In this document: piece by piece, positions 18,073-22,170 of the stretch
Numbering within the stretch: the first letter of the stretch is position 1
Layout of the letters: each line of letters opens with the position of its first letter
Assembly: GCF_009914335.1 (NCBI RefSeq)
Contig: NZ_CP043925.1
Coordinates: 248,001 to 312,000, forward strand
Direction of reading: 5' to 3'
DNA length: 64,000 bases
Source: Proteus columbae
GTDB lineage: Bacteria; Pseudomonadota; Gammaproteobacteria; Enterobacterales; Enterobacteriaceae
The notes under the pieces: model-generated
Seen by the model: only the letters and a program-made list of their open reading frames with translations
What the model was told of the DNA's origin: nothing
Database searches by the model: none
Program-made: the position numbers and the translations under genes

Positions 18073-18420
18073 ATGCGAATTATTGTTTATGGTAGTTTAC
18101 GGCAAAACCAAGGTAATCATCACTGGATGACCTATGCGCAGCTATTAGGCGAGCATAAATTAGTGGGATATAAACTTTATGATTTAGGGTTTTATCCTGC
18201 TGTGGTTGAAGGTGATGGCGAAATAGAGTGCGAAGTTTATCGGATAACGCCCTCTATTTTGACAGAGCTTGATGAATTGAAAAAGAACGATCAAGATTAC
18301 AAGCGCCAACTGATTTCAACGCCTTATGGCAGTGCTTGGATCTATCTTTATCAAAAACCTGTTGATGGTTTACGTGAAATAAAAAGCGGTGACTGGCTAA
18401 AACGTCACGAAGAAGAGTAA
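18073..18420 (+). CDS. ytfP: Gamma-glutamylcyclotransferase-family protein YtfP
   Basis: A 115-residue protein of the GGCT/AIG2 fold: MRIIVYGSLRQNQGNHHWM at the start is the YGSLR substrate-binding motif. GFYPAVVEGDG, the catalytic-type Glu of the family in the ECEVYRI strand, and LDELKKND follow. Physiological substrate is unknown for the bacterial YtfP type. Five bases after tamB, so third gene of tamA-tamB-ytfP; a strong terminator follows. Confidence 0.92.
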   Translation: MRIIVYGSLRQNQGNHHWMTYAQLLGEHKLVGYKLYDLGFYPAVVEGDGEIECEVYRITPSILTELDELKKNDQDYKRQLISTPYGSAWIYLYQKPVDGLREIKSGDWLKRHEEE

Positions 18421-18454
18421 TTGGTCAGATCCACCTTTTACTGAAAGATGTCTG

Positions 18455-18488
18455 AAAACGGCTCGATAGTGATATCGAGCCGTTTTTA
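18455..18488 (+). terminator. Intrinsic terminator of tamA-tamB-ytfP
   Basis: AAAACGGCTCGATA (18455-18468) pairs with TATCGAGCCGTTTT (18473-18486), followed by T. A very stable 14-bp stem that isolates the following cassette. Confidence 0.92.
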
Positions 18489-18643
18489 TTGATGGAATAG
18501 GCAGTGTTTTTTTAATTAAATAATATTTTTAATTATATTTATTTTATAAAAACCATTCGTGATAATTACTTTCAAAAATTGAAATTAAAATAGATACTTT
18601 GTTTTTTATCTATATGAATATGAATTTTATTAATGGTGTGGCT

Positions 18644-18682
18644 AATTGACAATAAAAATAATTTAATGTTAAAACGTCAATT
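18644..18682 (+). promoter_or_regulatory. Candidate promoter with flanking inverted repeat upstream of the orphan cassette
   Basis: In the 336-base AT-rich gap after ytfP (18421-18756) a perfect TTGACA lies at 18646-18651, with a weak -10-like TTAAAA at 18669-18674 (17-base spacer). AATTGAC (18644-18650) recurs inverted as GTCAATT (18676-18682), so the arms cover the -35 box and the likely start site, as an operator would. The rest of the gap holds only the ytfP terminator. Pattern seen; function inferred. Confidence 0.35.
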
Positions 18683-18756
18683 GAGTTTGGAGCAAAATAA
18701 TGAAGGGTATTTCTATGGTATACGAATAATTAATCAAAATTTAATAAGGTAATTTT

Positions 18757-19026
18757 ATGAATGAATCAAATGAGATTTATTGCCTTTATAAAACCCCTCC
18801 CAAAGAAGTAAAGCAAAATCAAAATATAGAAAATCATCACTTTACTGATATGATTTTACAAACAAAAGTAACTGCAAAAGATGCACTTGATAAATTGGCT
18901 TATCTTGCGGGCATTAAAAATGCACCCTCTGATGATAAATATTCAAAATTGAATACATCTAATCTGTATTCACTTCTAGAAAGCGCAAATTTATTAGGTT
19001 ATGACATCGAAATAGTCAATGTTTAA
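18757..19026 (+). CDS. 89-residue orphan protein, first gene of cupin-MFS cassette
   Basis: I do not recognise this protein. It starts MNESNEIYCLYKTPPKEVKQ after an AATAAGGTAA ribosome binding site. The first ~35 residues look disordered and polar (many Asn, Gln, Lys, His); residues 38-89 look helical (TAKDALDKLAYLAGI, NTSNLYSLLESANLLGYDIE) and end in Val-Asn-Val. One cysteine (position 9); no signal peptide or membrane segment. A perfect 12-bp hairpin separates it from the cupin gene, so it may be expressed more strongly than the downstream genes. It could be a small carrier, a regulator, or a precursor peptide; none can be shown. Confidence 0.6.
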   Translation: MNESNEIYCLYKTPPKEVKQNQNIENHHFTDMILQTKVTAKDALDKLAYLAGIKNAPSDDKYSKLNTSNLYSLLESANLLGYDIEIVNV

Positions 19027-19030
19027 TAAA

Positions 19031-19058
19031 AATAAAGCAGCCAGAAGGCTGCTTTATT
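19031..19058 (+). terminator. 12-bp hairpin inside the cassette, possible partial terminator or RNA stabiliser
   Basis: AATAAAGCAGCC (19031-19042), loop AGAA, GGCTGCTTTATT (19047-19058); perfect pairing, starting 4 bases after the stop codon of the 89-residue gene. The trailing T tract is short, so read-through into the cupin gene is likely. TTAAGGA, the next gene's ribosome binding site, follows. Confidence 0.6.
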
Positions 19059-19075
19059 AACTTAAGGAAAAAATA

Positions 19076-20368
19076 ATGAATAAGGATATTATTGAGCTAA
19101 ATAAAAATATTAACATAGTAGGATTACATTGGGTTTCTCGGTGGCGAGTTAATAATGGAAAAAAGGATTCTTATGTTATTCCTTTCGCGACAACTTATCC
19201 GATTAATATTATTTATCATGGTGAAAATGAATTTAAATATGGACAATATGGTATTCATCTAGGGCAACAAGATACATTAACTTTTTTAGGTGATAAAAAT
19301 AAAAAAATACTCGCTAAGTTTATCGATTGTCGTAAAAATTCACCAACTTTCAAATCAAGATTAAGTTTTTATATTACTCCCTCATCGGCAAGAACGTTGA
19401 TTATTCCTCCTGGTGTTGCTCATACTTTTCATCACTTAGAAAATATATTTACTTTAAATAATTACACTTTATTTTTACCTACGATAGATAAATTAGCCAG
19501 TAAAGCACTGATGTGGTCACCAAATAATGATGTTATTAATCTTCCTGAAGATATTGATATTGACGATATTGATGGTTATGAACCTATGACAGAGGAAGCC
19601 TCTGATCTGGTCTACCATCGAATAGCAGATATACAACATGGGATATTGAGCCAACATGCTTTTTTGCATTCAGAAACACGAAAAATTCGTTTAGATGATG
19701 GCGATGAAGTTAATTTAAGATTCAGAGAAAAAATAACAGAAAATCAGAAACGGCAATTACCTATATCAACAATTTTAGGTGTGGCGTTTCGTGACATACC
19801 TACCATGCAAACAGGCAAAGAGAGTGGCATCGTTCCGTTAACACGAAAATCGCCTATGTATCTTGTTGAACATGGTAATGAAGATTACAACTTTGACTCT
19901 TATGGCTTACACCTAGGGCAAGAAGACCATTTAACTTTTTTAGGGGATGCTTCTAGTGAGATAACATTAAAACTTGTCGACATGCGAGAAGGCTCCGCCA
20001 CTCTATTTTGTGAAGATGAAATAACGTTCAAGCCTTTACCTAATATGGAATTAGTGATCCCCTGTGGGGTAGCTCATGCGTTGTTTAATATGGCTAATAT
20101 TATTACAGTTAATCGGCCTGTTATATATTTAGATGAAGAAAAAGAGTATATTCCGGGGCATGATGTTATCGACTGGGAAATTGCTAATAAAAATTATCAA
20201 GCATATTGCACTAATAAAATAGAGGCTGACTTAGGTTATTATCAATTTATTGTCTCTAAACAAAAAGAGATAATTAAACAGAAACCTACCCATCATACAC
20301 CAAAATCAATTATTATATATGGCAAGAATAATAAACCGATTAAAGTCTTAATTAAAGAAAAGGTTTAG
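19076..20368 (+). CDS. Tandem RmlC-like double-cupin protein
   Basis: The 430-residue product contains two copies of a sugar-epimerase-like cupin. Repeat 1 has YGIHLGQQDTLTFLGD (His61), FIDCRKNSPTF (Asp84, Arg86) and IIPPGVAHTFHH (His116). Repeat 2 has YGLHLGQEDHLTFLGD (His279), LVDMREGSATL (Asp302, Arg304) and VIPCGVAHALFN (His334). These align with the GLHFQ, VDLRKSSPTF and IPEGFAHGF elements of dTDP-4-dehydrorhamnose 3,5-epimerase (RmlC), including its catalytic-base histidine. An internal duplication in one chain is unusual, since RmlC is normally a homodimer of single domains. The C-terminal 60 residues are basic and unmatched. Cytosolic. It may act on a nucleotide sugar or a small polar metabolite; no other sugar gene is adjacent. 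Confidence 0.72.
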   Translation: MNKDIIELNKNINIVGLHWVSRWRVNNGKKDSYVIPFATTYPINIIYHGENEFKYGQYGIHLGQQDTLTFLGDKNKKILAKFIDCRKNSPTFKSRLSFYITPSSARTLIIPPGVAHTFHHLENIFTLNNYTLFLPTIDKLASKALMWSPNNDVINLPEDIDIDDIDGYEPMTEEASDLVYHRIADIQHGILSQHAFLHSETRKIRLDDGDEVNLRFREKITENQKRQLPISTILGVAFRDIPTMQTGKESGIVPLTRKSPMYLVEHGNEDYNFDSYGLHLGQEDHLTFLGDASSEITLKLVDMREGSATLFCEDEITFKPLPNMELVIPCGVAHALFNMANIITVNRPVIYLDEEKEYIPGHDVIDWEIANKNYQAYCTNKIEADLGYYQFIVSKQKEIIKQKPTHHTPKSIIIYGKNNKPIKVLIKEKV

Positions 20369-20376
20369 TTATTATT

Positions 20377-21579
20377 ATGCGTATTATCTTTTTTTATATG
20401 CTTTTTTTTGTTTTAACAGCTGATGGATTAATGGTATTTCTTACACCCGTTATTGTTTATCAGTTAACAACAAGTATTGAATATTCAGGATTAACATACG
20501 CATTATGGTGGCTACCTCGACTTTTTTTAATACCACTTATTGGTAAATATATTGATGGTCTAGGTATTCGGCCTATCGCTGTTGTTTCTGATGCTTGTAA
20601 AATAGTAGGGTGTTTATTTTTATTACTTACTCATTTTACATCTGATTTGATGATAGCGATAAGTTTTGGTTTGATTGGTAGTTTAATTTCTATTGGAAAT
20701 TCACAAACATTGATTTCTTATGAAAAAATTATTGCGTTGATAAGTCATCATAAAGAGCATCATATTAATCTAATGTCTAGAATGGATTTCTTAGGTATGG
20801 TCATTGGACCATTATTGGGGATTGTTCTTATTGATTTTGGCTACAAGTATTTACTTGTTATACCGTGTCTATTCTATTTTATTAATGCTATTTTCTTTTT
20901 ATTCTTTTATGCAAGAAAAGAGATTAACACTGAAAATATAAATAACTCGGAAGAGAAAATCTTTTTTACTAAAAAATTTATTTATATTTTTTCCTCACCC
21001 ATACTGTTATTTTCTGTTTTTATTGCTATTGGTAATAATATGTTTGATGGTTTAATTGAATCCAGTGGAACGGCGTTAATTGTTCAGGTTATGAATTTAC
21101 CGATTAAATACTATGGTTTTATTGATATTGTTGCGGGTATCTTCGGTGTATTAGGAACATATTTATATAGTTATTTAAATCAGTACACAAGTAGAGTTTG
21201 GTTAACTATTATTTCAATTGCTACTATTACTATAAGTTCTTCTTTGCTTGTATTTTTTCAAAGCTCAATAATTATATTTATTATTTGCTATGCGGTTTCA
21301 ATTATTGGAAAAGTCTTTTCAGGTAATGTATTGAGAATATTAAGAATGGAAATTATTCCCATAAATCAGCTCGCTAGCATTTCATCACTGATTATTTTAT
21401 TAAATCAGATGATATTACCCATTGTTGGGGGGCTTTTATTTTTCTCTACAGGGGAGGTCACCACTATTTATACACTGATGGTTATTGCTATAGGAATAAC
21501 ATTGATAAGTGGTGGATTGCTTGTAATACGCTTAAAAAAGAGACGTCGTTATCATAAAAAAAGCCCTTCAATAAAATGA
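20377..21579 (+). CDS. MFS transporter, last gene of the cassette
   Basis: A 400-residue membrane protein with about 12 hydrophobic segments, beginning at MRIIFFYMLFFVLTADGLMV. The loop between helices 2 and 3 (GKYIDGLGIRPIAVVSD) matches the MFS GxxxDRxGRR region, with a weakened basic cluster. Helix 5 has the MVIGPLLGIVLIDFG-like motif seen in drug/metabolite exporters. Overall architecture resembles the MFS_3/EntS exporter group. It starts 8 bases after the cupin stop, so both are probably co-translated. Likely exports (or imports) whatever the cupin protein handles; the substrate is unknown. Confidence 0.8.
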   Translation: MRIIFFYMLFFVLTADGLMVFLTPVIVYQLTTSIEYSGLTYALWWLPRLFLIPLIGKYIDGLGIRPIAVVSDACKIVGCLFLLLTHFTSDLMIAISFGLIGSLISIGNSQTLISYEKIIALISHHKEHHINLMSRMDFLGMVIGPLLGIVLIDFGYKYLLVIPCLFYFINAIFFLFFYARKEINTENINNSEEKIFFTKKFIYIFSSPILLFSVFIAIGNNMFDGLIESSGTALIVQVMNLPIKYYGFIDIVAGIFGVLGTYLYSYLNQYTSRVWLTIISIATITISSSLLVFFQSSIIIFIICYAVSIIGKVFSGNVLRILRMEIIPINQLASISSLIILLNQMILPIVGGLLFFSTGEVTTIYTLMVIAIGITLISGGLLVIRLKKRRRYHKKSPSIK

Positions 21580-21590
21580 AGAGCTTATTT
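21561..21590 (-). terminator. Terminator for ppa (and the cassette)
   Basis: AAGCCCTTCA (21561-21570) pairs with TGAAGAGCTT (21577-21586) with one mismatch. On the minus strand the stem is followed by seven T, so it terminates ppa; on the plus strand it overlaps the end of the MFS gene and is weaker. Confidence 0.65.
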
Positions 21591-21642
21591 ATCAGTAAAT
21601 TATTAAGTCATAATTCACTTAGTTATTCTGAGTGGGTCAGAA

Positions 21643-22170
21643 TTATTTTTTAGCGCGTTCGAAAGAAGACAGAATTTCAGCTTTAGCTGCTTCTACGCCT
21701 TCCCAACCGTCAACTTTAACCCATTTGCCCGCTTCTAAATCTTTGTAGTGTTCAAAGAAATGTTTGATCTGTGCTTTTAAAAGCTCTGGCAGATCAGTCA
21801 CATCTTTAATGTGATCGTATTCTTTGCTCAGTTTAGTGTGAGGAACTGCAACCAGTTTCGCATCTTCACCTGATTCGTCAGTCATTTTCAGTACGCCAAC
21901 AGGACGGCAACGAATAACTGAACCTGGTTGTAATGGATATGGAGTTGGAACCAGAACGTCTACTGGGTCACCATCTAAAGATAACGTGTTGTTGATGTAA
22001 CCGTAGTTGCATGGGTAGAACATTGCAGTTGACATAAAACGGTCAACGAACAGTGCGCCACTTTCTTTATCAACTTCGTATTTGATAGGATCAGCGTTTG
22101 CTGGGATTTCAATAACAACATAGATATCTTCTGGTAGTTCTTTACCAGCAGGAACATGATTCAGGCTCAT
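21643..22170 (-). CDS. ppa: Inorganic pyrophosphatase
   Basis: Family I soluble pyrophosphatase, a hexamer that hydrolyses PPi and pulls biosynthetic reactions forward. The 175-residue product ([20 protein letters not shown]...) has [14 protein letters not shown], the FYPCNYGYI substrate loop and the signature DGDPVDVLV with its three metal-binding aspartates, plus [10 protein letters not shown] near the end. Length matches E. coli Ppa (176). Confidence 0.98.

Follow-up and report, generated by a model that had tools for sequence, protein, structure and literature searches.

The stretch of DNA analysed here, hereafter the window, comprises 64,000 nucleotides (nt) of Proteus columbae (contig NZ_CP043925.1, positions 248,001 to 312,000), and our analysis focused on a cassette of three genes, designated A, B and C, located in it between ytfP and ppa. 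According to the list of open reading frames (ORF), the three genes are codirectional on the + strand and occupy window positions 18757-21579, with intergenic gaps of 49 bases (A-B) and 8 bases (B-C). At 30.6%, the GC content of the cassette lies below that of ytfP (39.4%), of ppa (41.3%) and of the window as a whole (40.0%). These ORF coordinates and GC figures agree with an initial annotation of the sequence, in which three codirectional A/T-rich genes with such gaps had been described. The elements of the cassette itself are the following (lengths in amino acids, aa).

18757..19026, + strand: gene A, 89 aa, a proposed precursor or scaffold in which residues 41-70 (KDALDKLAYLAGIKNAPSDDKYSKLNTSNL) form the most conserved stretch.
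19031..19058, + strand: A-B hairpin with a 12-bp stem and a 4-base loop, a proposed attenuator or stabiliser (z -5.26 relative to dinucleotide shuffles).
19076..20368, + strand: gene B, encoding a 430-aa tandem RmlC-like cupin (bicupin; PF00908), the proposed modifying enzyme.
20377..21579, + strand: gene C, encoding a 400-aa transporter of the major facilitator superfamily (MFS; PF07690), the proposed exporter.

Species genomes were scanned with a profile of B, and 31 loci were retrieved, i.e. 16 gammaproteobacterial, 10 actinobacterial, 3 from Bacteroidota and 2 alphaproteobacterial. A was found upstream of B in 30 of them, in Pseudomonadota, Actinomycetota and Bacteroidota alike, with gaps of 14-581 nt; the exception (L023) is a contig that begins inside B. 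Most of these A proteins (26/30) were found by tblastn with Enterobacterales A queries (E <= 0.01), and the other four (L035, L039, L041 and L042) were assigned by position and motif, the identity to Streptomyces A being 70% for L039 and 42% for L041. Among 249 Streptomycetaceae genomes, A was present in four and full-length B in the same four, three of which were already included in the B profile scan; two more genomes held remote B relatives only. Exactly one A match (E <= 0.01) was found in each of 25 B-holding genomes, which had been chosen for having B (25 of the 31 loci) and whose A proteins had partly served to build the A profile. The A-B pair across three phyla is the firmest fact of this study.

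B is rare, since only one of 398 sampled Pseudomonadota genomes, namely the window's own, matched at E <= 1e-15. In an order-level sample (295 genomes), 111 matched B at E <= 0.001, 110 of them with at most 33 bits, as a single-domain RmlC would. Named organisms with relatives of A and B include Proteus mirabilis, Providencia, Dickeya, Photorhabdus and Streptomyces, the nearest named relative of window B being found in Proteus cibi (97% identity), and no blastn match to A-B was obtained in complete genomes of E. coli. Two 4-Mb Proteus mirabilis records with B in the plasmid collection (NZ_OL790811.1 and NZ_OL790812.1) look like chromosomes, to judge from their length.

Downstream of B, an MFS gene is present in 26 of the 31 loci (16/16 gammaproteobacterial and 10/10 actinobacterial), in L036 beyond one intervening opposite-strand gene. 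The expectation that the three genes would co-occur elsewhere was thus borne out. Besides A and the MFS gene, no third gene family common to the loci was found, the flanks not having been searched for rml genes individually. A small TPR_5-containing protein adjoins the cassette in five actinobacterial loci (L030, L032, L036, L038 and L039), and a LysR-type regulator gene lies upstream of A in the Streptomyces loci L028, L031 and L032 (identified with Pfam), similar frames being seen by eye in L030 and L033.

The product of gene C scores 63.5 bits with PF07690 (cut-off 33.4) and reaches no NCBIfam cut-off (TIGR00900, 35.2 vs 319.6 bits; Tap efflux, 15.5 vs 625). In all 16 gammaproteobacterial loci the MFS gene downstream of B is a relative of C, with a broken frame in some. 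Gammaproteobacterial C gave no blastp match at E <= 0.01 among the actinobacterial MFS proteins tested, although the B proteins that accompany these share about 40% identity with window B. The Streptacidiphilus MFS protein shares 52% identity with its Pseudonocardiales counterpart and 26% with the one of Streptomyces L028, while Streptacidiphilus B falls inside the Streptomyces clade of the B tree (support 99/96); the exporter was thus exchanged and A-B retained. Such an exchange around a constant A-B pair suggests a product that has to leave the cell, uptake being possible as well, and the derivation of the actinobacterial MFS genes from different MFS lineages likewise points to export.

The A-B hairpin was assessed in 31 gaps, i.e. 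those of the window and of 30 loci, with long gaps cut to the first 150 nt. A hairpin with z <= -2 was found in 23 gaps, those of Pedobacter and Arthrobacter among them, and z lay between -1.8 and -2 in three others. Two-sided pair changes were observed in 14 Enterobacterales gaps: with pairs numbered from the loop outward (rows L020 and L022 shifted by one), stem position 7 is A-T in seven and G-C in seven, and more positions behave likewise. Several stems lead into T-rich tails. A small gene followed by a hairpin had been likened from the start to layouts in which a peptide or carrier is made in excess; this arrangement recurs in most relatives and fits the comparison. Because the hairpin occurs in most loci and B and C are only 8 bases apart in the window, A is probably produced in surplus relative to B and C.

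This probable excess bears on an account in which A would serve B as a small partner or as a regulatory subunit, the substrate of B would be a free small molecule (in an isomerase reaction, for example) and C would export that molecule. A is indeed paired with B wherever it was looked for and is conserved without a variable core, and a bicupin isomerase together with an MFS exporter is known from bacilysin synthesis. However, the excess of A implied by the recurrent hairpin would be unexpected for a stoichiometric subunit, and with no other biosynthetic gene seen common to the loci, the product would have to come from B alone. We hold this account to be rather doubtful.

The product of gene B matches PF00908 in two stretches with 45.1 bits, passing the Pfam cut-off of 27, and its halves are 33% identical over 126 columns, which confirms the tandem RmlC-like cupin predicted initially. 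The PDB chains matching B at E <= 0.001 are RmlC-type epimerases, and public records label B as a dTDP-4-dehydrorhamnose 3,5-epimerase family protein. Six histidines, three per half (His48/61/116 and His266/279/334), are invariant in 22 aligned B sequences. Like RmlC, B has a cupin fold, and both of its halves contain related D-x-R and P-x-G-x-AH stretches. The RGLH histidine, which is catalytic in RmlC, corresponds to His279 in an alignment of domain 2 with six RmlC-like proteins from the fetched loci; His61 of domain 1 pairs with His279, domain 1 itself not being reliably alignable to the RmlC stretch. In RmlC, substrate contacts are made by the Arg preceding the RGLH histidine and by the KLVR lysine; in B domain 2 the former is replaced by Tyr and the latter falls in a gap. 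B further departs from RmlC in being tandem, in scoring 33 bits with TIGR01221, below the equivalog cut-off of 155.75, in having A as partner and in belonging to a three-gene unit without sugar-nucleotide genes. The nucleotide-sugar epimerase motifs noted initially are present; on sequence comparison they reflect the fold, two substrate contacts of RmlC not being kept in domain 2. B is a diverged RmlC fold and not an ordinary RmlC.

Searches of Pfam, NCBIfam, PADLOC and PHROGs gave no match for window A, and 59 relatives of it were collected. Comparison of the Enterobacterales A profile with a wide A set (mostly actinobacterial proteins of about 110 aa, with some Enterobacterales rows also included) gave an hhalign probability of 99.9%. 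Outside Gammaproteobacteria, A is mostly longer (86-135 aa) and shares with Proteus A mainly the C-terminal half. One Tyr near the N terminus, the Ile-Lys of an L-A-G-I-K motif and a Gly near the C terminus are invariant across 61 aligned A sequences, an alignment that omits L035. The C-terminal helix weakly resembles leader families of ribosomally synthesised and post-translationally modified peptides (RiPPs): Frankia_peptide was detected below its cut-off in 22 of the 61 members (best E 2.5e-4; best score 21.7 vs 48 bits, P0206), and the Nif11 leader in one A protein (L035 A; E 0.0012, 19 bits vs a cut-off of 32.3).

Many A proteins are labelled XRE regulators in public records. Taken together with the epimerase label of B, this would make A an XRE-type repressor of a sugar-modifying or transport operon, with B as sugar epimerase and C as sugar transporter. 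Weak matches point in the same direction, i.e. HTH_37 in 7 of the 61 members (best E 0.033), MLTR_LBD, a regulator ligand domain, in 11 of the 61 (best E 0.0043) and PHROG 1373, a transcriptional regulator family (E 0.034). Against it, HTH_37 reaches only 13.6 bits on L030 A for a cut-off of 27, and window A lacks any Pfam or NCBIfam match. In Actinobacteria, all 10 A proteins are acidic, with a net charge of -6 to -15, unlike those of Pedobacter (+2 and +3), Serratia (+1) and one Pseudomonas (0). Moreover, the inverted repeat at the putative promoter (see below) is not conserved, a hairpin behind a repressor gene would have no obvious use, and the RmlC substrate contacts not kept in B domain 2 speak against a sugar epimerase. 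A may nevertheless have an HTH fold, its structure models being of low confidence. The public label of A thus appears poorly supported; a regulatory role of A is unlikely in view of the Pfam, NCBIfam and PHROGs searches, the charges and the promoter comparison, and the repressor-operon account as a whole seems improbable.

Other small proteins were seen beside RmlC-like cupins. In the Streptomyces plasmids L080 (Streptomyces sp. NBC_00012) and L081 (NBC_01351), as well as in L087/L089, small proteins of about 90 aa accompany two RmlC-like cupins that are distant relatives of B, and MFS genes were seen in the L080 and L081 clusters. These small proteins share an L-G-K-I motif; their homology with A is not demonstrable, and they possibly belong to a parallel system. 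As relatives of A, the Streptomyces plasmid proteins were rejected (hhalign probability 0.2%). On a Leptolyngbya boryana plasmid (L082, 5535-6645), the gene directly upstream of a single RmlC-like protein encodes 88 aa; this small protein is Gly-rich in its middle, and its C-terminal helix looks by eye like that of A.

Around the cassette of the window, three further features were identified.

18455..18489, + strand: terminator-like hairpin 3' of ytfP, with a 14-bp stem, a 4-base loop and a T run, read from the sequence.
18646..18675, + strand: putative promoter, with TTGACA (18646-18651), a 17-nt spacer, TTAAAA (18669-18674) and the block TTTAATGTTAAAAC (18662-18675).
21561..21586, no strand assigned to the feature: hairpin at the C end, before ppa, listed by the consensus scan as a terminator-like site on the - strand.

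The stem and T run at 18455-18489 bear out the terminator proposed behind ytfP, and resembling hairpins were found 3' of ytfP in the six Proteus intergenic stretches compared; its absence from the list of the consensus terminator scan is probably due to the stem using up the Ts. Upstream of A, TTGACA is retained in 7 of 8 aligned Proteus regions, and an exact copy of the block TTTAATGTTAAAAC is present in 5 of the 8, with similar versions in others. The match to the -10 element is weak and the site was not listed by the consensus scan; a promoter at TTGACA is plausible. TTGACA is flanked by the arms AATTGAC and GTCAATT, 25 bases apart, so that the motif and the repeat described initially both exist. 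What did not hold is the repeat as a conserved operator: its right arm is not conserved across the 8 aligned regions, and the repeat is probably incidental. It was rejected as an operator on that ground, other operator forms not having been searched for. The 21561-21586 stretch is still present before ppa in some cassette-less Proteus genomes. An Rfam search of positions 18400-21700 returned nothing at gathering scores.

In E. coli K-12, the slot between ytfP and ppa is occupied by chpS-chpB, in line with the gene order given in the initial annotation, which had also taken the slot as one that accepts accessory DNA. A recent insertion peculiar to this strain was not upheld. Among 20 Proteus genomes, A and B (or a B remnant) occur in the same nine, directly after ytfP in all nine. 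Remnants of C were found in 3 of 11 cassette-less Proteus genomes, i.e. L063 and L065 (25-34 residues, tblastn) and L064 (C end, by eye), from which it follows that the cassette was lost there. The slot was accordingly rejected as a fresh insertion site, and on these comparisons the cassette is old within Proteus. In five of the 11 (L057, L061, L062, L072 and L073), a 419-aa gene on the opposite strand replaces the cassette after ytfP, the L057 copy being a sulfatase by Pfam (PF00884). Decaying copies were also seen: A is truncated and B carries a large internal deletion in G014 (L009/L071) and likewise in L043, a named locus of Proteus faecis, and frames are broken in L003/L069 (split A), L025 (split B) and L037 (internal stop in B).

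Outside Proteus, the flanks of the cassette vary by genus, with a few families recurring in scattered loci (e.g. a LysR regulator family). In the B tree, Providencia groups with Serratia and Pantoea (100/96) and not with Proteus, which forms one clade (100/99). B is present on plasmids of Chimaeribacter and Pantoea, all three genes being seen for Pantoea. From the differing flanks, the B tree and the plasmid copies, we infer that the cassette spreads horizontally. Enterobacterales cassettes are AT-rich relative to their own flanks (e.g. 41.4% vs 62.6% GC in Chimaeribacter).

The location in the chpSB slot, together with the patchy distribution and the AT-rich composition, could recall a defence, self-immunity or toxin-antitoxin-like module, which would share that slot by chance. 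The lack of a PADLOC match, the absence of relatives from the viral contigs and phage records searched and the recurrence of an MFS gene as neighbour all speak against such a module, which we regard as very improbable. A defence system was rejected on the PADLOC result, and phage cargo because no confirmed relative was found among the viral contigs or phages searched.

With no further gene seen to be shared by the loci, the product should be determined by A and B, aided by housekeeping functions, and this favours A as a ribosomal substrate of B. In the pathway that we propose, A would be a small ribosomal protein made in excess and acting as substrate or scaffold, in the manner of a RiPP precursor. 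B would bind A and modify it, the likeliest site being the conserved L-A-G-I-K or its vicinity, either through acid-base chemistry (epimerisation or isomerisation) or in the role of a metal cupin. A housekeeping protease would then free the modified part of A, and C would export the small product. That A is a ribosomal substrate or scaffold of B, and that C exports the product, within a self-contained and horizontally spread cassette, is to our mind an evenly balanced proposition.

Several observations weigh against this proposal. No variable core is recognisable in A, whose most conserved part is the centre (residues 51-60 in Proteus), and the protein stops a few residues past the Frankia_peptide-like stretch, where such precursors continue; a conserved core has a precedent in cofactors of the pyrroloquinoline quinone (PQQ) type. 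Two structure models of A are all-helical and of low confidence (mean predicted local distance difference test, pLDDT, 62.7 and 66.4), the second having no PDB fold match at E <= 0.001. The assignment of A is weak in L042 and L035 (29% and 26% identity to Streptomyces A, respectively), and the A-B hairpin is weak in 4 of the 31 gaps, one gap of 14 nt being too short and not folded. Finally, no peptidase was seen common to the loci, and five of the 31 (two Pedobacter, Chitinophagales, Erythrobacter and Methylocystis) have no MFS match beside B.

In order to place the system among known ones, open-licence papers of PubMed Central (PMC) were searched. No description of an RmlC-like bicupin paired with such a small protein was found there, nor any described pathway to which the cassette would belong, which agrees with its designation from the outset as a candidate for an undescribed system. 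RiPP clusters with leader-like precursors (Nif11, NHLP and Frankia_peptide) resemble it in the weak similarity of the C-terminal helix of A to Frankia_peptide, and differ from it in that A lies below the family cut-offs and lacks a variable core. In the portion of the report on the Os1348 cluster of Pseudomonas sp. Os17 that was compared, an 85-aa orphan protein likewise heads a cluster of putative modifying enzymes with efflux genes nearby, but its enzymes are a GNAT acetyltransferase, a HEXXH-motif protein and one more (PMC7726476). In the crocagin cluster, a ribosomal precursor is the target of non-canonical proteins that bind peptides, and a figure legend names MFS genes, whereas the words cupin and epimerase are absent from the text (PMC10070186). 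The biphenomycin-like clusters have an MFS gene and a cupin-like protein whose target is a RiPP precursor; in the sections compared, however, this cupin hydroxylase is JmjC-related, stands beside MNIO, arginase and radical SAM (S-adenosylmethionine) enzymes and is not an RmlC-like bicupin (PMC12257519). The Os1348, crocagin and biphenomycin-like clusters are the nearest analogues, and none of them uses an RmlC-like bicupin in the parts compared.

We propose more tentatively, and at somewhat less than an even chance, that the cassette represents a new class of ribosomal-peptide pathway. In this class, a diverged RmlC-fold bicupin would modify the internal L-A-G-I-K of a dedicated scaffold, with export by an MFS transporter, as a three-gene unit in Pseudomonadota and Actinomycetota and as A and B only in Bacteroidota. 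To our knowledge, the RmlC-type enzyme fold is known only from sugar-nucleotide and small-molecule chemistry. If the proposal is true, this fold would have been adapted to a protein substrate made by the ribosome, within a very small, self-contained pathway, one that has been hidden by the public labels 'XRE regulator', 'dTDP-4-dehydrorhamnose 3,5-epimerase family protein' and 'MFS transporter'.

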